This document shows positions 171 through 12,776 of a stretch of 64,000 bases of DNA, piece after piece (positions within the stretch are counted from its first letter, which is position 1; every line of letters starts with the position of its first letter). The stretch is from Nodularia sp. (in: cyanobacteria) (GTDB lineage Bacteria; Cyanobacteriota; Cyanobacteriia; Cyanobacteriales; Nostocaceae): NCBI GenBank assembly GCA_007692755.1, contig REBL01000159.1, positions 1 through 64,000 of the forward strand. The letters are read 5' to 3'. Position numbers and translations under genes: made by a program. The notes below the pieces were generated by a model. That model made no database searches. It was not told the origin of the DNA and saw only the letters and a program-made list of their open reading frames with translations.

Positions 171-1367
171 TTACACAGAAGTCATTTCCGGTTTCTTATC
201 TAAACTGATGAGACTTTTTTTCTGCCTATTTTTCCGCAACTTGACAACACTAGCCCCAATACCGAATATTCCCAGACCTAATATCGAAGCAGGCTCAGGT
301 ACTTTAGCTGCCCGTTCTACTGATAAGACTTGAATCCGACCTTGGAAGAAATCGCCTACATAAACTTTGTCATCGTGATAGTGCAAGCCAGCAGTCCAGT
401 TAAATTTGCCAGGTTCCAGGTCTATGGGGTCGCCATAGGGAGTTGTGCCGCCTAAGGCTTGAGGTAGAGGTGGTGGTACAACTTCACCAGATGCATTCAG
501 AGTTGGTCCGCCAAAGCTAGTTAAGAAATTACCATCTTTATCGAATACTTGAACGCGGCTGTTTTGAGAATCTGCGACATAAATATTTTCGTATTCGTCT
601 ACATCAATGCCGATTGGTTCTATAAATTGACCGGGTTCAGAGCCAGTAGAGCCAAAAGCAAAGAGAAAATTATCATCCGAGTCAAGAACCTGAATGCGAC
701 CGTTGTACTGGTCGTTAATATAAATTCTGCCAGTTGTGTCGGAGATAATTAAACCTCCTGGCCCCAAAAATTGACCGGGTTCACTGCCAGAACTGCCAAT
801 ACTTCTAATGTGTTCACCTTCTGGATTATATACTTTGATAATATCGGCACTAAAATCACTTACATATAAGTTACCAGCTGCATCGAAATCCATTCCTCCA
901 GGGCCAAAGAAGAATCTATCTTCTACTGGGCCGCTAAAGGAAGCATAGGATGTTTTATAGTTACCTTCGGCATCGAATACATTAATCCGGCTGTTGAAAA
1001 CATCACCTACGTGCATATCCCCTGTAATGGGGTTGAATCGAAGGTCGGCTGGTTCGTCGAATTCTCCAGGCCCGGAGCCAGTGCTGCCGATGCCTTTAAT
1101 ATAGTTGCCTTCGCTATCGAAGACATCAACACGGTCAATACCCCGACCATTACTGACAAAAATGTTCTGAGTAGATTCTTGTACCCCTATACCTTGGGGA
1201 ACAGTGATTACTCCTGGAACACCTGGAAAATCGCCATCGCTAAAGGTGGCAGGTCTACCAATACTACTGTCGTAATTTAAAGTTAAGGCTGCGGCTGTAT
1301 TTATTGCTGCCAGTGTCATCAATCCAGCACCTGCAAGTGCAATTGACAATTTTTTTACTAATGCCAT
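171..1367 (-). CDS. scyF: ScyF-like NHL-repeat protein with PEP-CTERM tail
   Basis: Last gene of the scytonemin operon in the window. Residues 1-27 form a signal peptide ending near NTAAA. The body is a run of NHL/beta-propeller repeats, visible as the recurring GSTGSGPGEF, GSSGSEPGQF and GSTGSEPGQF segments, each followed by a proline-bearing strand and an IYVADS- or IYINDQ-type strand. The C-terminus VPEPASILGLGIFGIGAS plus basic residues is a PEP-CTERM sorting signal. The protein should be exported and envelope-associated. The family role in scytonemin assembly is not defined biochemically; placement as scyF rests on order after scyE and on the NHL fold. The start at ATG 1367 has an AGGAG upstream. 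It lies 106 bases after scyE, across a spacer of GGGGAAT-type heptads. Confidence 0.9.
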   Translation of the reverse strand: MALVKKLSIALAGAGLMTLAAINTAAALTLNYDSSIGRPATFSDGDFPGVPGVITVPQGIGVQESTQNIFVSNGRGIDRVDVFDSEGNYIKGIGSTGSGPGEFDEPADLRFNPITGDMHVGDVFNSRINVFDAEGNYKTSYASFSGPVEDRFFFGPGGMDFDAAGNLYVSDFSADIIKVYNPEGEHIRSIGSSGSEPGQFLGPGGLIISDTTGRIYINDQYNGRIQVLDSDDNFLFAFGSTGSEPGQFIEPIGIDVDEYENIYVADSQNSRVQVFDKDGNFLTSFGGPTLNASGEVVPPPLPQALGGTTPYGDPIDLEPGKFNWTAGLHYHDDKVYVGDFFQGRIQVLSVERAAKVPEPASILGLGIFGIGASVVKLRKNRQKKSLISLDKKPEMTSV

Positions 1368-1380
1368 CTGAAATAAGCTC

Positions 1381-1426
1381 CTGGGGAATGGGAAATAGGG
1401 TTGAGGGAATGGGGAATGGGGAAATT
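1381..1426. repeat. degenerate GGGGAAT heptanucleotide repeats
   Basis: The scyE-scyF spacer contains imperfect 7-base units of the GGGAATG/GGGAAAT kind. These are the short tandem heptamers common in Nostocales intergenic DNA. The same unit occurs inside menD near 53.9 kb. Confidence 0.7.
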
Positions 1427-1473
1427 TCTTTAAGTCTGCTATCCCTGCACCCCATTCCTTTTAAACAATTTGT

Positions 1474-2757
1474 TTAGGCGGTTTTTGTCAGGTTGGCTAA
1501 TTTGCGTTTGCGCTTCGCTAGAAAAGTTGTGCCAAATGCTGCTGCTATGAGAGCTAGGGCTGTTGTGGGTTCGGGAACTTTTTGAGGATCGTAGCTGGTA
1601 TCTTTGTGGGGATTGAAGCTGAGGACTTGTCCGACACCGGGGCGATCGCCTTTGTTGGTAATATAGATAGTGCCATCAGGGCCAACTTCTAAAGAGGTCG
1701 CAGATTCGAGTCCTTCACCAGCACTAATCAAAGTTGTGCGAGTTCCATCAGGAGCTACTTGGAATAATGAAGAGGCGAAATCATTTTCCCATGCTGGTCT
1801 ATCGGCATATTGTAAAACTAACAAGTTGCCATCTTGGTCAAATTCCAAGTCACCAATTTGTGTAAAACCATCAGCGAATACTGTTGGTACACCATCATCC
1901 CCGACTCGATAAACACGCGAGCCACCTTCTGGATAGGGAAAGCCAGAAAAGTCACTGACGTATCTCGCACCATCAGGCCCAATTGCTACACCTGTGGGTA
2001 CTGGTTGTAAGTCGATTTCGTTGGTGTTAAAGTCTATTCCTGGTGGTAGGGGTTGATCTGGGTCAAGTGGTGGGAATTCGGGATTTTCAAAGGGGGTGCT
2101 AAAAAATGGCACTACTCCTGTAATTCCGCTACCATCAAGGGCTACACTCAGTAAGGTGTTGGCTCCGGCATCAGCTATATAGGCGGTATCACCTTGAATG
2201 GCTAGAGCATAAGGGTTGCTCACAATATCTGTGCCATCAGGATTATAAAGGAGTTCATATTCTGCTAAATCGGCAAGACTGGTGAGCGCTCCTGTGTTTA
2301 AGTCGATGTTGTAAAGTTGTCCGAAGGTGGAATCATTGAAAACTGTATCCCGGTTGGCGGGGTTCCCAGCAAAGCCATAAACAAGGTAAGCGTTTCCTTG
2401 AGAATCAAACTTGATGTCTTGTGGTCCAGCACCCTCAATACCGGAAGGTTGGATAGCTAGAGATGGCAGTCCTGTGAATATTTGCTCTTGCTGACCATCT
2501 TGAATTCTAGTGATGGCAGCAGTATTACCAGAACATAAAGAAGCAAATTGTACACTGGGCGATTCTATACATCCGCCGTCTCCGCCTATACCTGTTTCTG
2601 TGACATAGATACTGCCGTCAGGGGCAACACTCACACCTCTAGCATTATCGAGTCCGTCAGCAATGACTGAGAATGAGGCAGCTTCGGCTGCTTTGGGGGC
2701 AGAAATCACAGTAATACAACAGCCGAGCAGTGTGATAGCAAATGACTTAAGTTTCAT
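1474..2757 (-). CDS. scyE: ScyE-like exported beta-propeller protein
   Basis: Scytonemin-cluster protein of the ScyD/ScyE family. The ORF track begins at 2931, but MKLKSFAITLLGCC at 2757 starts a clean signal peptide ending near AEAAS, so that ATG is preferred (427 residues). The sequence is a propeller with repeated GPDGTIYIT, APDGSIYVT and GPDGARYVSDF motifs. It ends in VPEPTTALALIAAAFGTTF followed by KRKRK, a PEP-CTERM signal. It is clearly paralogous to ScyD next door: both share GGDGGC/GGNGAC, RVGDDG.PT and APDGTRTTLIS blocks. It should act outside the cytoplasmic membrane, where late pigment steps are thought to occur. The exact reaction is unknown. Confidence 0.92.
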   Translation of the reverse strand: MKLKSFAITLLGCCITVISAPKAAEAASFSVIADGLDNARGVSVAPDGSIYVTETGIGGDGGCIESPSVQFASLCSGNTAAITRIQDGQQEQIFTGLPSLAIQPSGIEGAGPQDIKFDSQGNAYLVYGFAGNPANRDTVFNDSTFGQLYNIDLNTGALTSLADLAEYELLYNPDGTDIVSNPYALAIQGDTAYIADAGANTLLSVALDGSGITGVVPFFSTPFENPEFPPLDPDQPLPPGIDFNTNEIDLQPVPTGVAIGPDGARYVSDFSGFPYPEGGSRVYRVGDDGVPTVFADGFTQIGDLEFDQDGNLLVLQYADRPAWENDFASSLFQVAPDGTRTTLISAGEGLESATSLEVGPDGTIYITNKGDRPGVGQVLSFNPHKDTSYDPQKVPEPTTALALIAAAFGTTFLAKRKRKLANLTKTA

Positions 2758-2881
2758 ACTTTTGAAAACTATATAATTGGTAATTTGGGTAAATTTTGAC
2801 GATTTGCAGGATAAGGAATTCCCGCCCCAGGGATATGTGGGATAAACACTGGTATTAATTTGAAAGTTTTTATCTGAGCGC

Positions 2882-4144
2882 TCAGACTTTATGAAGGGGT
2901 TTGAGGCGGCTACTCTTTCGCAACCAAACAACGCCGAAAGCGCCGATAGTTAATACACCTAATGCAGAATTAGCTTCAGGAACAGACTGGATATTGTCAA
3001 TGCGGATAATTTGTCCTTCTCCTGGGCGATCGCCTCGGTTGGCGATGTATACAGTACCATCAAGATCAATGGTTAAGGCAGTAGGCGATTCCAATCCGTT
3101 GCCACTGATAAGAGTTGTGCGAGTGCCATCGGGAGCTATTTTGATCAAAGAACCATCGAGGTTATTTTTCCAGCCTGACTCATTGGCATACTGCAAAACA
3201 TACAAATTGCCTGCATAATCAAATTCCAAGTCCATCAGGTGGGTAAAACCTTCTGCATAGATTGTGGGTATACCGTCATCACCCACGCGATAGATGTTTG
3301 CTCCTCCTTCTGGAAAGGGAAAGCCTGTATATTCACTGATGTAATAGGCTCCGTCTAGTCCTTTAGCTACACCTGTGGGAACTGATTGAATAGTCGTTAC
3401 TAACGGTGGTGGTTCAGTTTGAGTTGGGACTTGTTCAGGTTCATTCGATGGGGTAAAGGAAGGTGGGAAGATGGGATCAACTAATGTTTGTGTGGGAAGT
3501 ACGGCCAAAGCTTGCAATTCTGAGCCATCTGTATTCACTCGTAATAAGCCGTTGCCAGCCGAATCAACTGTCAGAAGTTGATCACCATCGATTAAGATTT
3601 TTAAGGGATTGCTATTGAGATCATCGCCATCCGGATTATTAACGAGTTCATAGTTGGCTATATCTGCAATACTCGTCCAGGAATTGGTGGCAAAATCAGG
3701 AGAGATAATTGTTCCTAGTCCAGTTTCACCCAAACTCTCTCGATAAGTGGGATTAGTCCCATACCCCAGCAGCACATAAGCCTGACCTGTAGCATCAAAT
3801 TGAATATCACGGGGGCCAGCTGCTCTTTTGCCATCTGGTAATGCTAAGGAAGGTAACTCTGTGAGTACAGGCTTGATTTCACCGTTATCTATGACGCTGA
3901 CTACACCATTAGTTCCATAGCATAAGGAATCGCCCTCGCCGCTTGGTGGTGGAACGCAAGCACCATTTCCTCCTGTTCCACTTTCTGTTATATATAGTTT
4001 ACCGTCGTTGCTAAAACTAAGACCACCTGGATTATTCAGATTATCGGCAATTACTGTAAAGGATGCTGCTTCTGCTGCTTTTGTTCCCGATAAGGCAGTA
4101 ATACAAAGACTAACAAGGGTAATAGTAATCTGCTTGATTTTCAT
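2882..4144 (-). CDS. scyD: ScyD-like exported beta-propeller protein
   Basis: Paralogue of ScyE, 420 residues, starting at ATG 4144 with a signal peptide (MKIKQITITLVSLCITALSG, cleavage near AEAAS). Propeller strands carry SNDGKLYIT, GLDGAYYISEY and DLDGTVYIANRGDRPG motifs. The C-terminus has VPEANSALGVLTIGAFGVVW and a basic end. This is PEP-CTERM-like with PEA in place of the usual PEP, so sorting may be less efficient or the motif may be diverging. A proline-rich linker (about residues 220-250: PPSFTPSNEPEQVPTQTEPP) separates the two halves. Known only as a scytonemin-cluster protein of uncertain catalytic role. It sits 64 bases after scyC. Confidence 0.92.
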   Translation of the reverse strand: MKIKQITITLVSLCITALSGTKAAEAASFTVIADNLNNPGGLSFSNDGKLYITESGTGGNGACVPPPSGEGDSLCYGTNGVVSVIDNGEIKPVLTELPSLALPDGKRAAGPRDIQFDATGQAYVLLGYGTNPTYRESLGETGLGTIISPDFATNSWTSIADIANYELVNNPDGDDLNSNPLKILIDGDQLLTVDSAGNGLLRVNTDGSELQALAVLPTQTLVDPIFPPSFTPSNEPEQVPTQTEPPPLVTTIQSVPTGVAKGLDGAYYISEYTGFPFPEGGANIYRVGDDGIPTIYAEGFTHLMDLEFDYAGNLYVLQYANESGWKNNLDGSLIKIAPDGTRTTLISGNGLESPTALTIDLDGTVYIANRGDRPGEGQIIRIDNIQSVPEANSALGVLTIGAFGVVWLRKSSRLKPLHKV

Positions 4145-4164
4145 CGGTTTTGTGATGTTTTTAA

Positions 4165-4206
4165 ACGCAAAGGGGCGCTGAGGTAACGCAAAGGGGCGCT
4201 GAGTTT
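4165..4206. repeat. two tandem copies of a 20-base repeat
   Basis: The scyC-scyD spacer consists largely of two copies of AACGCAAAGGGGCGCTGAG. A diverged pair of the same repeat is found at about 32,997-33,035, next to another short spacer, and single copies occur elsewhere (near 20,300). It is an interspersed cyanobacterial repeat rather than an operon-specific element. Confidence 0.75.
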
Positions 4207-4208
4207 TT

Positions 4209-5180
4209 TTAGTGATTGGTTACTAGGGAGTTTTGTGTTTTTGGTACGTAACTCATTCCTAAGTCGAAGGATTTAAGATTTCCAGCTTGGGCTTCTAACA
4301 TCCGTTTGATGTTCATACTTTCAGCCCCGAAGTCTTCAATTTGCAGTTTTCCGTGGGCGAGGACTTGATCGGTTTTCCAAAATGTGATGCGATGCAATAT
4401 GAATCCAGAAGCTTCAGGATCAGCGAATGCGTAAGCTGTGGGAATAAGTAGGGCGACGGAACGCTGATAAAATCCGTAGTCTGGATAAAAGTTTTCTTGT
4501 TCAAGCAAGTGATATTTGCTTAAGTTATGTACTCTCAGAGAAATTTTAATCTTTTGGTCGTATTCATCTCTGAATTCACCTGATTGGGAACTAATTTCGC
4601 CAAATGGTCTGACTAAGTGCGCCCACTCATCCATATTTTTTAAGTCTGACAAATACTTGATTCCGATATCCATTGGCGCGTCAACATAAATGGTATCGGT
4701 ATCGATGAAGTGGCGACCTTTAGCTGCTGTACTCCGTCCCGCTTGGCGTTCTAAAATTGCTTTGAGAGAACGAGTTTCGGAAGTATGTACAGTGTGAATC
4801 CCCTGCATTATCATGGGAGTTTGTCGTTTGGGATCGACAAAGCTTAACCAATGGAAGTACACACCTTTTTCGTCTGTTTCTGGATCAATGTAGCTGGGAG
4901 GAAACAGTAAAACTGGATATACTTGGAAGTATTTATTATACTCAAATCCGCAGTGCCATTCTATTCCATAAAAAAGCGGATTTTCTAGCTTTTTAACATG
5001 ATAGTAGAGATTTTTATGATAACCTGATGCTGTTCCCAGCCAAGTATCTTCATCAATTTGCTCAATCATCCGGCTAAAAAGCGTCCAATCGTCTAAGTTT
5101 TTTAAACCGCAAAGATACTCAAAGGCAGTTTCGGGTGAGGTGGCGATATAAGTTGAGGTCGCAAATGAATTTTTTTCCAT
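4209..5180 (-). CDS. scyC: ScyC, scytonemin cyclase
   Basis: Homologue of the scytonemin enzyme that cyclises and decarboxylates the ScyA product to the tricyclic ketone monomer. The 323-residue protein has two tandem START/SRPBCC-like halves. Each begins with a similar strand-helix segment: TYIATSPETAFEYLCGLKNLDDW near residue 10 and TIYVDAPMDIGIKYLSDLKNMDEW near 165. The track starts at a TTG (5192), but ATG 5180 lies 6 bases after GGAG and is preferred. No signal peptide is present, so it is cytoplasmic, unlike ScyD-F. It is 30 bases downstream of scyB and clearly co-transcribed. Confidence 0.95.
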   Translation of the reverse strand: MEKNSFATSTYIATSPETAFEYLCGLKNLDDWTLFSRMIEQIDEDTWLGTASGYHKNLYYHVKKLENPLFYGIEWHCGFEYNKYFQVYPVLLFPPSYIDPETDEKGVYFHWLSFVDPKRQTPMIMQGIHTVHTSETRSLKAILERQAGRSTAAKGRHFIDTDTIYVDAPMDIGIKYLSDLKNMDEWAHLVRPFGEISSQSGEFRDEYDQKIKISLRVHNLSKYHLLEQENFYPDYGFYQRSVALLIPTAYAFADPEASGFILHRITFWKTDQVLAHGKLQIEDFGAESMNIKRMLEAQAGNLKSFDLGMSYVPKTQNSLVTNH

Positions 5181-5210
5181 TTTACACTCCAAAAAATTAA
5201 TATTCAGTGA

Positions 5211-6272
5211 TTAAGCAGCAAGTTCTGTAATTTTGCTATTTTTGGCTTTTATAATCCGGTCTTCAGCTAACCGTTTAGAAGCATTATTTGTACTGATATT
5301 TTGCTGTTTAGCAATATCAAAAATTGCGAGAAGTGTGTCATAAATGTTATGCACTTGTTGAAAGGCTTTTTCTTCGTTATAGCCAATCATTTCGTTATAA
5401 ACATTAATCAGACCTCCGGCATTAATCACATAATCAGGACAATAAGTGATGCCTTTTTGGGTCAGCATTTGACTATGTATTTGCTCATCACCTAACTGAT
5501 TATTAGCCGCGCCAGCAATAATTCCCGCTTTGATCTGAGGAATTGTTTCACTATTGAGCATTCCCCCTAAAGCACAAGGTGAAAAAATGTCAACATCAAG
5601 AGAATAAATTTCTTCTGGGCTAACAACAGTCGCACCAAAAAGTTTTCTTACTTCCTCTGTTTTGGCTGGGTCTACATCGCTGACATAGAGTTTGATTCCA
5701 TGCTCATGTAAGTGACGACAGAGATTTTTGCCAACATTTCCCAAACCTTGGATTGCAACTTTCAATCCCTGAATTTCTTGGCTGTGTAAATGAGATTGTA
5801 CAGCAGCTTTGATGCCTAAAAATACTCCCAGGGCTGTGACAGGAGCCGGACCACCAGACTTTTCCGAGACTCCAACAACATATTTGGTTTCTTTACGAAT
5901 TGAACGGACATCTTCAGGGGTAAGATTCACATCTTGTCCTGTAATAAAACGTCCATTCAGACTTTCGATAAAACGTCCATAAGCTCTGAGGAGTTCTTCG
6001 GTTTTTTGCTCAGGATTAGCAATAATAACTGCTTTTCCGCCACCAGCAGGAATATTAGCACAAGCGGCTTTATAAGTCATACCACGACTGAGACGCAGCG
6101 CATCTTTTAAAGCAGCTTCTTCATTAACATAAGGGAAGAGTCTGGTCGCCCCCATTGCTGGTCCTAGAGTTCGGTCATGGATAGCAATAATCGCCTTGAT
6201 ATCGGGATTTCTGCCATGACAGAATAAAACCTGTTCATGACCCATTTCTCTCACAGTTTCAAATAGCAGCAT
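5211..6272 (-). CDS. scyB: ScyB, tryptophan dehydrogenase (Glu/Leu/Phe/Val dehydrogenase family)
   Basis: NAD-dependent amino-acid dehydrogenase. In scytonemin synthesis this family member oxidatively deaminates L-tryptophan to indole-3-pyruvate. Visible motifs are the N-terminal substrate domain with GPAMGATRLFPY, the catalytic-lysine region PAGGGKAVI near residue 80, and the Rossmann glycine motif VAIQGLGNVGKNL near 178. The C-terminal block GAANNQLGDEQ is also typical. Full length at 353 residues. It is the second gene of the scy operon, separated from scyA by 315 bases but only 30 bases from scyC. Confidence 0.95.
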   Translation of the reverse strand: MLLFETVREMGHEQVLFCHGRNPDIKAIIAIHDRTLGPAMGATRLFPYVNEEAALKDALRLSRGMTYKAACANIPAGGGKAVIIANPEQKTEELLRAYGRFIESLNGRFITGQDVNLTPEDVRSIRKETKYVVGVSEKSGGPAPVTALGVFLGIKAAVQSHLHSQEIQGLKVAIQGLGNVGKNLCRHLHEHGIKLYVSDVDPAKTEEVRKLFGATVVSPEEIYSLDVDIFSPCALGGMLNSETIPQIKAGIIAGAANNQLGDEQIHSQMLTQKGITYCPDYVINAGGLINVYNEMIGYNEEKAFQQVHNIYDTLLAIFDIAKQQNISTNNASKRLAEDRIIKAKNSKITELAA

Positions 6273-6587
6273 TTGCTTTTTCCAAGATTGATTTGGGATA
6301 ATTTCCAGTAATTAAACACCACCTAAACTGCTACACAAAGTGATTATTCCTCACACCATTTCTTTGTAAGAAATTGCCCTGTGTAGCCATAGGTGCGCCG
6401 AATTCCTGCCTTTCCTCTCTTCTTCCTTCTCCCAAGGGGAGACGCTACGCGGTAAGCGAAGCTATGCCGAAGGCTTTACGTGTCCTTTGCGGTATGCGCT
6501 ACGCGCACGCTACGCGTTAGCGGAGCTTTCGCTTTAGCGATACGTTCCTCTTACATAGCAGACAGGATCAAAACGAAGAATTCACGA
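6273..6587. other. scyB-scyA spacer rich in interspersed palindromic repeats
   Basis: This 315-base gap has no ORF. Bases about 6430-6550 are a mosaic of short palindromic units containing GACGCTACGCG, AGCGAAGC and ATGCCGAAGGC. These are a dispersed Nostocales repeat type also seen near 23,765, 55,315 and 63,590. The remainder shows no clear promoter that could be called by eye. Confidence 0.7.
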
Positions 6588-8474
6588 TCAAACTGATGGG
6601 AATGAAGCTGGTTTAGCGGAACCGTTCACCTGATTAGATTTAACTCCTTGTGCGGCTAAACTCTTATTCCGTCCACCAGAAGGCGCAGGTTGATCGGCAT
6701 CAATCACTACATCAACGAGAAAAGGAACATTTGAGGCGATCGCTTGCTCTAATGCAGCTTCTAGGTCTGACTCTCGCACAACTCCCACAGCTTCTGCACC
6801 CATACCGCGAGCAATCATGGCAAAGTTGGTCTCTGGCATATCTGCATCTGCACCTTTCAACCCCAACATTTTCATGCCTTGATGGCACATATTGTAACGG
6901 GCATCATTAAGCACAATCCAAACAGCAGGAATATTATATTTTACGGCTGTGCTGATTTCATTATTCATCAGCATCGCCCCATCCCCGACAATCGCCACAG
7001 CTTTACCATTTCGGGCTTGGGCTGCACCTAAAACTCCTGTAGCTGTGTGACCCATAGCCCCTACTCCGGTGCTGACTCGATAACGATTGGTGTGAGCAAA
7101 TCGCAAGAAATGAGTTGACCAAGTAAAGGAATTACCACACTCCGCCATAACTACCGCATCGCTACCCTCAACAATGATTTTTTGAATTGCAGCCATTAAT
7201 ACTTCTGGTCGCACTGGATAATCTACATCTGCAAGCGGTGCAATGGCTGTCTGTTCTGGATGAGGTAAGCAAATATCCCTAGAACAAGGGGGAATATCTG
7301 GCCATTGCTGCAAGAGTTCCTGCATATAAGCCTTGATATCAGACTGAATCGGGAATGTTTCCGCGTCTGAATAAGCTACCCCTGGAACTTCTGGGTCAAT
7401 ATCTACATGGACAAAGCCGAATGAGGGAACCATTGCTTTACTCCAAAAGGAAGTGGGTTCGCCTAAGCGGGTTCCTAATACAAGTGTGCGTAAAGGCGGT
7501 TGCTCTTCCATATAAGTCAAAACTGAAGCATGACCGCCCAAACCTGTGACACCGACAAACTGGGGATGATCTTCGGGAAAGATACCTTTACCACGGGGAG
7601 AACACATGACTGCGGCTCCAGTTTTTTCGGCGAATTGCCGAATCTCCTCGGCGGCGTGACGAGCGCCAAAACCTACCCAGATGGCAAAGTTTCCCGCAGA
7701 TAGTAACTCTACAGATTTCGCGATCGCTTCCCCTTGAGAGGTCATAGGAAAACTCGGTATATCTAATTGTGGCAGACAAACACCATCAACTAAGCTGGTC
7801 TGGATCGCAGTGGGAATACTTAAATGGACGACAAATCCTCCTGGTTGCGCTAAACCCAAAGCAATTTTGCGAAAAACCTGGGGAAGTTGCGCCGCCGATT
7901 CAATGGTGATCGCATAGTTAAACAGCGCCCCTGGGGTGAAAATTCCGCCACTGGGTAGGGTATAGGTGCTGGTTTCCTGAATTGCCCAGCGTCCCCTTTG
8001 CGGCGCAGAAGTGCAAGCAGAGAGCAAAATTACCTTTGCACCTTCACCACGGGCGGCAAACAACCCGGTGAGCGCGTTAGTAATCCCTGGCCCGGCTGTG
8101 GTAAAAACTACCGTAGGGCGATCGCTGGCAAAATACGCCTCGGAAGCAGCAAAAGCAGCCCCAGCTTCATGGCGGAAATTCAACACCTCTATATTGCTAT
8201 TGGATAACGCATTCCACAGGCTAGCCATTGCACCACCAGCTACCCCAAAAGCATAGCCTATGCCCAAATTTTCCAACATCTGCGCGATCGCATCAGCAAC
8301 CGAAAGCTTAGGGGTTTCATTCAGTAAAAAAGGTTCAATTTCCGTTTTTTGCTCTAATTTGTCCAACTGGTGAGAACCGTTAGACGAAGATTCTACATAG
8401 TTCTTTGGTGGCAATTCCTTGTATAGCTCAGTGGTGATTTGAGGGGAGTTTGAATCAGTATAGTTTTGACTCAT
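6588..8474 (-). CDS. scyA: ScyA, ThDP-dependent acyloin-type synthase
   Basis: Thiamin-diphosphate enzyme of the acetolactate-synthase family. In the scytonemin pathway it couples indole-3-pyruvate to p-hydroxyphenylpyruvate. It has three domains: a PYR domain from about residue 55 (GIGYAFGVAGGAMASLWNAL, then the EAGAAFAASEAYF glutamate region), a central domain at about 245-385, and the PP domain from about 415. The ThDP/Mg motif is GDGAMLMNN followed by VLNDARYN near residues 505-540. An N-terminal extension of about 55 residues is low in recognisable structure. It is 628 residues long and first in the operon, reading away from the divergent regulatory genes. The paralogous ThDP enzyme menD is elsewhere in the window. 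Confidence 0.95.
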   Translation of the reverse strand: MSQNYTDSNSPQITTELYKELPPKNYVESSSNGSHQLDKLEQKTEIEPFLLNETPKLSVADAIAQMLENLGIGYAFGVAGGAMASLWNALSNSNIEVLNFRHEAGAAFAASEAYFASDRPTVVFTTAGPGITNALTGLFAARGEGAKVILLSACTSAPQRGRWAIQETSTYTLPSGGIFTPGALFNYAITIESAAQLPQVFRKIALGLAQPGGFVVHLSIPTAIQTSLVDGVCLPQLDIPSFPMTSQGEAIAKSVELLSAGNFAIWVGFGARHAAEEIRQFAEKTGAAVMCSPRGKGIFPEDHPQFVGVTGLGGHASVLTYMEEQPPLRTLVLGTRLGEPTSFWSKAMVPSFGFVHVDIDPEVPGVAYSDAETFPIQSDIKAYMQELLQQWPDIPPCSRDICLPHPEQTAIAPLADVDYPVRPEVLMAAIQKIIVEGSDAVVMAECGNSFTWSTHFLRFAHTNRYRVSTGVGAMGHTATGVLGAAQARNGKAVAIVGDGAMLMNNEISTAVKYNIPAVWIVLNDARYNMCHQGMKMLGLKGADADMPETNFAMIARGMGAEAVGVVRESDLEAALEQAIASNVPFLVDVVIDADQPAPSGGRNKSLAAQGVKSNQVNGSAKPASFPSV

Positions 8475-9853: not shown

Positions 9854-11827
9854 ATGAACTCTAGTGAACGTACATTAGTTTTCTCCAATCCTCAATGGAA
9901 GCTACAGCCAGAAATAGATTTTAAATTTGCTTATTTCTTGATAAATCAAGCTGTAGATGCGGCTTTCTGTTTAAACGAAAATGAGCAATTTATTCACGTC
10001 AATGATGCCACTTGCCAAATGACGGAGTATTCCCGTGAGGAATTACTTTCCATGAGACTGCATGATCTCGATATAGACTTATCTCTACATAATTGGTCAG
10101 ATATCAAATCACAAAAGTCCTCTACCTTTAAATCTCGCTATCGTGCCAAGGGAGGGCGTGTATTTTTAGTAGAAACATCTATTATCTATGTAGAAAATCT
10201 CGGTAAAAAGTTTGGCTGTGCCGTTGTGCGAGATAAAAGTGATGAACTCATAGAGTTGAGTGTACAAACATGGATGGATGAATTAAGAAACGCCAAAAAC
10301 TATTTTCAACAAAAAGTTTCACAACTAACTACAAAAGAAGTAGAACTGGGAATATCCCTATCCATATTTAATTCTACCCTCGAATCTACTGCTGTCGGCA
10401 TTGTGGCAATTAATTTTGAGGGAGATATTCTGAGTTTGAATCAGAAGTTTATCGATATGTGGCAAATTCCAGAATCCCTGATTTTATCTCAGAAATGTCC
10501 TCAATCTAAAGCTTTATTTGAGAACAAAGTAAAAAATCCAGAAGCATTCTCTAAACTGATTTGGGAAGTTTCTAGCCAAGCTGAAATTGAGAGCTACTAT
10601 ATTCTGGAATTGAAGGATGGAAGAACATTTGCACACTACTCTAAGCCTCACTATATGGCTGATAAAATTGTCGGTAGGGTATGGAGTGTATGGGATATTA
10701 CTGAATCCAAACAGACAGATGAAGCACTGATTCTGAACGAAGCTAGATTCCGAACTTTAGCAGAAACAACAGAAGCGAACATCTTCCTGATTCAAGGCAA
10801 ACAACTTTGCTATGTAAATCCGGCGGTGGAAAAACTCACTGGCTACAAAAAAGAGGAACTGCTAAACAACTTTGACCTTCATCGACTAATTAAGAGTAAA
10901 GAATATAGGCAGGTACGCCATCAAAATGCAGCATCTAACCTGGAATATCAGGAAATGAAACTGCTGACAAAAGGCGGCACAGAACGTTGGCTAGCTTGCG
11001 CGGTTGCCAAGCTTGATGGAATGCTGGATTTCGGAGGAAAACCAGTCGAACTGATTACAGGCATTGATATTACAGATTACAAAAATGTAGAATCAGACCT
11101 TAACCAAGCGTTAGAACAAGCAAAACAACTCAGCGAACTCAGAGCGCGGTTTCTAGCTATGGTCTGTCATGAATTTCGGACTCCACTGAATATTGTTTCA
11201 TTCTCGAATAGTTTACTAAAACAACAAGTAGACAAACACACAAAGCAGAAAATACAACCATTAATCGAACATATTGAAAAAGCCATCGAACAAATCAGCC
11301 AGATGTTGGATGATACTTTGTTATTTGCTAAAGCAGAAACAGCCAAAATAAGTTTTGAGCCTCAACCGCTTGATTTAGTTCAGTTCTGCAACAATTTAGT
11401 GGCACAAATGCACATGAGCATGAGCCAAGAATTAATCAATTTTGGCAGTCAATTTGATTGCCTGATAGCCTGTGTTGATCCAAAATTACTTGCGCCAATT
11501 TTCAAGAATTTGCTCGAAAATGCCATTAAATATTCTCCCTCTGACATGATGGTTGATTTCATCCTGGGTTGTGAAAATGGAAAGTTAATTTTCCAGGTCA
11601 AAGACCAGGGAATTGGTATTCCACTAGGAGATCAAGAAAATTTATTTGAACCATTTTATCGGGGGAGTAATATCAAAAATCTACCCGGTACTGGATTAGG
11701 GTTATCGATTATCAAATCCCTTGTAGACTTACATGGCGGTCAAATTGCTCTAGAAAGTCAGGTAGGTGTAGGCACTACCTTTACTGTGATGCTGCCATTA
11801 ATTGAAGAAGAATTTCTCTGTTCCTAG
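9854..11827 (+). CDS. PAS-containing sensor histidine kinase next to scy operon
   Basis: Soluble sensor kinase of 657 residues. No transmembrane segment is evident. PAS domains lie at about 25-130 (DAAFCLNENEQFIHVNDA), 165-285 and 295-415 (NIFLIQGKQLCYVNPAVEKLTGY). They are followed by a HisKA domain with VCHEFRTPLN (phosphorylated His near 438) and an HATPase domain with NLLENAIKYS, DQGIGIP and GTGLGLSI. ATG 9854 follows AAGGAG. It reads with the response regulator downstream and is divergent from scyA. In Nostoc punctiforme a kinase/regulator pair occupies the same position beside scyA, and its regulator is needed for scytonemin production. By position this is probably the orthologue; the signal sensed is unknown. 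Confidence 0.92.
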   Translation: MNSSERTLVFSNPQWKLQPEIDFKFAYFLINQAVDAAFCLNENEQFIHVNDATCQMTEYSREELLSMRLHDLDIDLSLHNWSDIKSQKSSTFKSRYRAKGGRVFLVETSIIYVENLGKKFGCAVVRDKSDELIELSVQTWMDELRNAKNYFQQKVSQLTTKEVELGISLSIFNSTLESTAVGIVAINFEGDILSLNQKFIDMWQIPESLILSQKCPQSKALFENKVKNPEAFSKLIWEVSSQAEIESYYILELKDGRTFAHYSKPHYMADKIVGRVWSVWDITESKQTDEALILNEARFRTLAETTEANIFLIQGKQLCYVNPAVEKLTGYKKEELLNNFDLHRLIKSKEYRQVRHQNAASNLEYQEMKLLTKGGTERWLACAVAKLDGMLDFGGKPVELITGIDITDYKNVESDLNQALEQAKQLSELRARFLAMVCHEFRTPLNIVSFSNSLLKQQVDKHTKQKIQPLIEHIEKAIEQISQMLDDTLLFAKAETAKISFEPQPLDLVQFCNNLVAQMHMSMSQELINFGSQFDCLIACVDPKLLAPIFKNLLENAIKYSPSDMMVDFILGCENGKLIFQVKDQGIGIPLGDQENLFEPFYRGSNIKNLPGTGLGLSIIKSLVDLHGGQIALESQVGVGTTFTVMLPLIEEEFLCS

Positions 11828-11942: not shown

Positions 11943-12776
11943 ATGAAGTACGAATCACCGAAAAAAATTTTAGTAATTGAAGATGATACTTTGACGCGGA
12001 ATCTTTATGTAAAGGGTCTTCAGGCTAAAGGTTTTGATATTATCAGTGCTGAAAATGGTTTTGCTGGTCTGCAACAAGCACAAGAGCATCTCCCTGATTT
12101 AGTAGTTTGCGATATTACAATGCCTGATATAGATGGTTATAGTCTTCTCACTATGCTGCGTCAAGATCCTGTGACAGCCATTATTCCCTTTATTTTTATT
12201 ACTGGTAGCTGTACTAGAGGTTCTGTTCGCAAAGGGATGGAGTTAGGTGCAGATGACTATGTTACTAAACCCTCTACACTAGATGAATTGCTCAGAGCAA
12301 TTACTACCCAATTGCAAAGACAAGCTATGCTCCAAAGCTGGTGCGCTACTAAATTTCAGGAAGCTCAAAAATCAGCATCCGCAGATAAGAGTTCAGTGTT
12401 GGAACAGCCTCATTCAATATTTCCCTGTATTCCCCAATTAAAACAAGTTTTTGACTTTATCGAAGCCCATTATCACGAAGGAATTACGCTGTGTGATGTG
12501 GCTGAAGCCGTTGGCTATTCACCAGCTTACTTAACAAACCAAGTAGGAAAGCAGACAGGGGAGACTATCAACAGTTGGATTGTGAAACGCCGGATGCAAG
12601 GAGCGCGTTTTTTACTGCAAAATGACCACCAAACAGTCGAGCAAATTGCCAGACAATTGGGTTATCAAGATGTTTCCCATTTTTCTCGCCAGTTTCGGCA
12701 ACATCATGGTTTACCTCCCCATGCTTGGCGCAAAGAACATCAGGTTGGGTATTGCAAATTCAAAGTCAGTAATTAG
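11943..12776 (+). CDS. response regulator with AraC-type DNA-binding domain, probable scytonemin regulator
   Basis: 277 residues. The receiver domain (about 8-125) has the acidic pair VIEDD, the phosphorylation aspartate in VVCDITMPDIDG near residue 57, FITGS and the lysine in DDYVTKPS. A linker leads to an AraC/XylS double helix-turn-helix (about 172-270: DVAEAVGYSPAYLTNQVG, then EQIARQLGYQDVSHFSRQFRQHHG). It is presumably phosphorylated by the preceding PAS kinase (115-base gap) and activates scy transcription, matching the known requirement for this regulator in N. punctiforme. The binding site cannot be read from the sequence. A strong terminator follows at 12,931. Confidence 0.93.
   Translation: MKYESPKKILVIEDDTLTRNLYVKGLQAKGFDIISAENGFAGLQQAQEHLPDLVVCDITMPDIDGYSLLTMLRQDPVTAIIPFIFITGSCTRGSVRKGMELGADDYVTKPSTLDELLRAITTQLQRQAMLQSWCATKFQEAQKSASADKSSVLEQPHSIFPCIPQLKQVFDFIEAHYHEGITLCDVAEAVGYSPAYLTNQVGKQTGETINSWIVKRRMQGARFLLQNDHQTVEQIARQLGYQDVSHFSRQFRQHHGLPPHAWRKEHQVGYCKFKVSN

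Follow-up and report, generated by a model that had tools for sequence, protein, structure and literature searches.

The closest described counterpart of the locus studied here is the scytonemin operon of Nostoc punctiforme ATCC 29133 (Npun_R1276 to R1271), for which Ferreira and Garcia-Pichel reported in 2016 that ScyE and ScyF bear PEP-CTERM sequences and ScyD a defective one, and in which scyE is the sole essential one of these genes, scyD being dispensable and scyF an adjuvant only (PMC4870267). ScyD was then proposed to be a pseudogene, from a ratio of nonsynonymous to synonymous substitution rates (dN/dS) near 1 between distant strains. Klicki et al. (2018) located ScyE in the periplasm, assigned the ebo genes to monomer export, and reported that deletion of scyE abolishes scytonemin and leaves monomer in the periplasm (PMC6282210). 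Parrett et al. (2025) named ScyD, ScyE and ScyF putative PEP-CTERM proteins and deleted crtB, the gene for cyanoexosortase B, which abolished scytonemin; ScyF, present in the wild-type exoproteome, was missing from that of the crtB mutant. Monomer builds up in scyE and ebo mutants and does not do so in this one (PMC12188702). Here we analyze the scytonemin operon at positions 171–8474 of a 64,000-nucleotide stretch of DNA from Nodularia sp. (assembly GCA_007692755.1, contig REBL01000159.1), hereafter the window, together with scytonemin loci of other genomes. The best explanation as a whole, to which we assign a probability of about 0.78, is a split operon from which ScyE, ScyF and ScyD are exported, with tails that are read by an exosortase.

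With the wider PEP-CTERM/exosortase systems (TIGR02595, EpsH/XrtA; cyanoexosortase B, TIGR04156) the Scy proteins share a Sec signal and a C-terminal PEP motif, helix and basic cluster, in a setting of many substrates per genome and a dedicated exosortase. They differ in that the tailed Scy proteins serve a small-molecule pathway, whereas most known substrates relate to exopolysaccharide, and in that the sole essential tailed Scy protein is thought to be an enzyme.

The operon and its exported half

The segment is an ordinary cyanobacterial scytonemin operon with a cytoplasmic and an exported half. All six scyABCDEF genes are present on the reverse strand, each far above its curated NCBIfam cut-off, with ScyA, ScyB, ScyC and ScyF exceeding equivalog cut-offs and ScyD/ScyE family members lying between. 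The cytoplasmic half comprises scyA (6588..8474; thiamine diphosphate enzyme; NF035923, 1162.7 bits), scyB (5211..6272; tryptophan dehydrogenase; NF035922, 678.8 bits) and scyC (4209..5192; cyclase/decarboxylase; NF035924, 605.4 bits). The exported half comprises scyD (2882..4144; a paralogue of scyE; NF033206, 382.1 bits), scyE (1474..2757; 427 residues, a six-bladed-type propeller; NF033206, 388 bits) and scyF (171..1367; an NHL/beta-propeller protein; NF035926, 589.3 bits against a cut-off of 350).

Signal peptides were called by a simple hydrophobicity rule (a positive n-region, a 12-residue hydrophobic core and an A-x-A-like site), which finds signal-peptide-like N-termini in ScyD, ScyE and ScyF and none in ScyA, ScyB and ScyC. 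The same rule is positive for 0% of ScyA, ScyB and ScyC orthologues, and for 75%, 97% and 91% of those of ScyD, ScyE and ScyF, respectively. For scyE the likely start is ATG 2757, which gives the N-terminus MKLKSFAITLLGCCITVISAPKAAEAASFS, a normal Sec-type signal; we favor this start because the longer reading frame from TTG 2931 masks the signal peptide.

The C-terminal tails were judged with TIGR02595 (PEP-CTERM; curated cut-off 16 bits) and with the stricter Pfam model PF07589 (cut-off 20.7 bits). By TIGR02595 both ScyE (tail at 1504..1578 on the reverse strand: VPEP, transmembrane helix, KRKRK) and ScyF (231..302, reverse strand: VPEP, transmembrane helix, RKNRQKK) pass, at 21.8 and 17.8 bits, and both are among the 18 matches of a whole-genome six-frame search, where the ScyE tail scores 26.2 bits. 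The diverged tail of ScyD (2885..2983, reverse strand) has no TIGR02595 match listed at E≤10 and thus fails as a PEP-CTERM sequence; its VPEA motif differs by one base (GCT for CCT) from the VPEP that the compared relatives retain. PF07589 stays under its cut-off for all three proteins of the window (15.5, 14.8 and 13.9 bits, the last for ScyD). The preliminary description of this DNA, which had ascribed PEP-CTERM-like tails of unequal quality to all three exported proteins and no export signal to ScyA, ScyB and ScyC, is confirmed, the diverged tail of ScyD being the one that falls short of TIGR02595.

The C-terminal segments could instead be plain membrane anchors or relics that no exosortase reads. 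The failure of the ScyD tail in the window and in 51 of the 80 orthologues and the low PF07589 scores of all three window proteins speak for this idea. Set against it are the TIGR02595 matches of ScyE and ScyF, the near-invariance of the P-E-P motif across orthologues, the loss of ScyF from the crtB-mutant exoproteome (PMC12188702), and the fact that tailed Scy proteins are missing from genomes without PEP-CTERM proteins, as described below; taken together, we regard plain anchors or relics as very improbable.

An AlphaFold2 model of ScyE (predicted local distance difference test, pLDDT, 83.9) matched SMP-30-like lactonases and strictosidine synthase in a fold search. Identity to these six-bladed propellers is only 11–19%, and the likeness is one of fold, not of mapped catalytic residues; the model thus fits a small-molecule enzyme and proves nothing on chemistry.

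Exosortases in this and other scytonemin genomes

A search of the same genome for an exosortase, as the preliminary description had proposed, found two. CrtB (496.9 bits) is flanked by an aminotransferase upstream and a TIGR04533 CrtB-associated protein downstream, the arrangement published for N. punctiforme (PMC12188702). The second, cyanoexosortase C (CrtC; 365 bits, L002:107-2334), adjoins a PTPA-CTERM protein and an HpsJ-like protein. Neither of the two outcomes that were named beforehand as refuting, all three tails below the model threshold or a genome devoid of exosortases, was found. The locus resembles that of N. punctiforme in gene order, in the signal peptides on ScyD and ScyE, in the PEP-CTERM tails on ScyE and ScyF and the weak tail on ScyD, in the divergent two-component system, and in the neighbors of crtB; it differs in its VPEA motif on ScyD and in the additional CrtC, N. 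punctiforme having CrtB as its single exosortase.

For comparison we sampled 52 ScyC-positive genomes of the order (out of 391 genomes sampled) and 80 named genome loci. CrtB is present in 36 of the 52, about the same frequency as in the whole sampled order (256/391), and the 16 ScyC-positive genomes that lack it dispose of the idea that scytonemin loci are always paired with CrtB. Nine of these 16 have tailed Scy proteins at the locus, and all nine carry another exosortase above the Pfam cut-off; the five that were typed (G045, G063, G149, G175 and G187) all have CrtA, at 256–309 bits. A further CrtB-less genome, G265, in which no ScyE was found, also has an exosortase typed as CrtA, which brings the range for the six typed genomes to 253–309 bits.

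Five CrtB-less genomes (G136, G146, G176, G240 and G251) have no ScyF above the cut-off and no tailed ScyD, ScyE or ScyF gene after scyC. They yield zero TIGR02595 matches genome-wide at E≤0.02, against 1–22 in nine comparators. By PF09721, G146 and G240 have no exosortase; G136 has XrtO, and G176 and G251 have divergent CrtA-like genes (154 and 165 bits).

A probably permuted ScyE relative in genomes without detectable PEP-CTERM proteins

In the same five genomes an open reading frame of 1,077–1,261 residues follows scyC in place of scyDEF; in G251 it seems to be divided between two contig ends. With a sixth genome, G175, in which it occurs alongside tailed ScyE and ScyF, the protein is found in 6 of the 391 genomes (L075:9534-12722, L090/L135, L092:9121-12828, L057:9583-12963, L067+L224 and L053:9463-12699); all six are ScyC-positive and none has CrtB. 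The NCBIfam ScyE profile matches the long reading frame in two swapped pieces, profile positions ~201–331 first and then ~1–189, and a profile of ScyE written twice aligns to each of them as a single domain without a break at the join (e.g. positions 194–505 of 674). The protein thus aligns as a circularly permuted ScyE propeller would. A single-sequence structure model of the permuted propeller (pLDDT 57) matches propellers and is too weak as proof of the permutation, for which the profile alignments are the basis. After the propeller come a linker that is acidic and rich in proline and then a GDSL-lipase domain (PF00657, 50–56 bits in the three scanned), in which block I reads GDR for GDS, so that the usual catalytic serine is replaced by arginine. 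The protein has no signal peptide by the hydrophobicity rule and no PEP motif at its C-terminus. In L075 its gene is followed by those of the ebo set, namely TatD, UbiA and dehydroquinate-synthase-like genes.

In a ScyC tree the five genomes in which the permuted protein takes the place of scyDEF form one clade and G175 stands apart. Since the clade mixes two families, this suggests transfer of the permuted-protein cassette. Upstream of scyA in four of the permuted loci (L057:974-4633, L090:1001-4219, L092:656-2302 and L075:2350-3453) we also observed further reading frames without a signal peptide that have the same MxETLN N-terminus, possibly a common export leader; the three scanned had no Pfam match. 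Separately, G136 and G175 encode more ScyE-family proteins away from the scy locus (L217, L218, L221 and L222), which start with MSETVKTPQ or MSQTV and have neither signal peptide nor PEP tail.

We think it somewhat more probable than the opposite that scytonemin finishing comes in two export versions: (i) exosortase-dependent tailed ScyD, ScyE and ScyF, or (ii) a single signal-less protein of permuted ScyE and a GDSL-like domain with serine changed to arginine. The second version would belong to lineages in which no PEP-CTERM system is detectable, namely Pleurocapsa sp. CCALA 161 with its relatives and a genome from another family; its gene lies between scyC and the ebo genes, and the protein would be exported by a different route. 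We infer that the permuted protein would do the job of ScyE. It may instead be an unrelated extracellular protein that sits at these Pleurocapsa-type loci by chance, in organisms that either do not produce scytonemin or rely on a ScyE that escaped detection. Its want of a recognizable export signal, its second domain and the two other signal-less, tail-less ScyE-family proteins elsewhere in G136 are compatible with such a coincidence. Its location in several loci, with scyC on one side and ebo-like genes on the other, its restriction to six genomes that are all ScyC-positive, and its being the sole ScyE-family protein above the cut-off in G146, G176, G240 and G251 speak against it, and we consider a chance neighbor rather unlikely. 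In the open-license literature we found no description of a permuted ScyE/GDSL-like form, and the occurrence of a permuted ScyE relative with no tail in genomes that lack PEP-CTERM sorting appears to be new.

Conservation of the tails

Tails of orthologues were tested with TIGR02595 at E≤0.015, roughly equivalent to the 16-bit cut-off, and with a motif rule (P-E/D-P/S/A, a hydrophobic stretch and at least two basic residues). ScyE passes the first test in 84 of 88 orthologues and the second in all 88, ScyF in 80 and 86 of 90, and ScyD in 29 and 61 of 80. The tails of ScyE are essentially invariant. The TIGR02595 pass rates of ScyD and ScyE differ with a Fisher p of about 1e-17, uncorrected for kinship.

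All 18 ScyD proteins that lack the motif, from Calothrix, Rivularia, Scytonema, Brasilonema, Rhizonema and relatives, form one clade (support 100/98), so repeated independent losses are rejected in favor of one event. A recent frameshift was likewise rejected as the cause of tail loss in ScyD or ScyF, as the tail-less genes keep no PEP motif in any reading frame between 150 bases upstream and 260 bases downstream of the stop codon. The ScyD tail is, as judged by the tree, apparently lost once and cleanly in a single clade. Its propeller (window 2882–4144) has a dN/dS of 0.12–0.29 in close pairs, which indicates purifying selection and contradicts the pseudogene proposal of 2016. In the tail, for the window's genus and its nearest relative, dN is 0.09–0.12 and dS 0–0.09 over 32 codons; these figures are suggestive only, and would fit a tail under little constraint on a conserved propeller.

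Tail-less ScyF was found four times, in three Rhizonema genomes and one Scytonema metagenome-assembled genome. At the loci of Rhizonema and a Scytonema metagenome-assembled genome (L086, L182, L191, L200 and L219), scyE is absent and ScyD and ScyF are both tail-less.

Proposed mechanism

In the mechanism that we propose, the monomer would be produced in the cytoplasm by ScyB, ScyA and ScyC, and from there the Ebo proteins would carry it to the periplasm. ScyE, with ScyF and ScyD, would cross the inner membrane by Sec and be held there by the C-terminal PEP-CTERM helix until an exosortase cuts, presumably CrtB in this organism and CrtA in several coccoid lineages. ScyE would then dimerize the monomer. 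The tails of ScyE and ScyF would be kept because they are used, and in lineages without a detectable PEP-CTERM system scyDEF would be replaced by the tail-less, signal-less permuted ScyE relative, which is the outcome that a real dependence of the tailed Scy proteins on the exosortase predicts. The sequences themselves show the gene content, the signals, the tails, the exosortase and their co-occurrence, and work in N. punctiforme has shown that scytonemin requires crtB, scyE and ebo; we infer both the cleavage of the tails in this organism and the order of the steps after export.

Four points weigh against this mechanism. First, cleavage of the Scy tails is putative. Second, the crtB mutant accumulates no monomer, unlike the scyE mutant, so the effect of crtB deletion may be indirect (PMC12188702). 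Third, the association between exosortase and tails has very few independent events behind it, because the five genomes without PEP-CTERM proteins form one clade in the ScyC tree; association p-values are to be read with that very small number in mind. Finally, a Rhizonema genome (G363) keeps CrtB though its ScyD, its ScyF and an unlinked ScyE-like protein are all tail-less, so that tails are apparently not needed wherever an exosortase exists.

Some of these observations bear on an alternative in which the tails are real and cut by CrtB and the cutting is unneeded for scytonemin, pigment being lost as an indirect consequence of envelope damage or of Ebo misassembly. Such a side effect would agree with the missing monomer in the crtB mutant, as opposed to scyE and ebo mutants (PMC12188702), with the finding that ScyE and ScyF are already periplasmic (PMC6282210), and with the persistence of a tail-less ScyD under purifying selection through a whole clade. 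It accords poorly with the essentially invariant tails of 88 ScyE orthologues and with the lack of any tailed ScyE in genomes without a CrtA- or CrtB-type exosortase, among those checked. On balance we hold it to be unlikely, and prefer the exosortase-dependent mechanism.

The division of labor that the preliminary description had drawn, monomer made inside and later steps left to exported proteins, stands as regards the cytoplasmic ScyABC and exported ScyDEF; a role in the later steps can be given only to ScyE, because scyD is dispensable and scyF a mere adjuvant in N. punctiforme (PMC4870267). Sorting to the envelope or sheath, also claimed there, is unproven: the periplasm is where both ScyE and ScyF were detected, and their destination is left open by PMC12188702. 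The shared tails and the weak tail of ScyD, put forward as worthy of attention, go back to the 2016 description, the exosortase link was put to the test with a deletion mutant in 2025, and the split itself is the published model; what was noticed in the window is real and was known before.

Neighboring genes

A two-component regulator pair adjoins scyABCDEF. The scytonemin sensor histidine kinase (9854..11827, forward strand; NF045595, 1038.3 bits, cut-off 865) is divergent from scyA, and next to it lies a response regulator with receiver and AraC-type helix-turn-helix domains (11943..12776, forward strand), assigned from receiver-family and AraC-family matches and from its position. The window begins at a contig end (contig C276), and the rest of the operon is unlinked here; an EboC homologue, the only ebo product sought, is encoded on another contig of the same genome (74% identity, E 3.8e-141).

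Within the operon, scyE (window 1501–2700) is 66–72% identical to two genomes of the same genus, lower than most flanking scy genes (80–94%), and its identity to Nostocales cyanobacterium LEGE 11386 (L204) remains at 82–84%. Because of this drop against the same genus and the retained identity to LEGE 11386, the pattern looks like an exchange of scyE alone.

Implications

The window itself adds little that is new, being one more example of the published link between exosortase and scytonemin. The comparative result is weightier, as it provides natural examples of a scytonemin locus that has outlasted the PEP-CTERM system, with a rebuilt ScyE relative that has no tail. Such cases make the question raised by PMC12188702, whether tail processing is needed for the last step and where the proteins end up, directly testable, and the permuted form offers a form of the enzyme that might work in foreign hosts without crtB.

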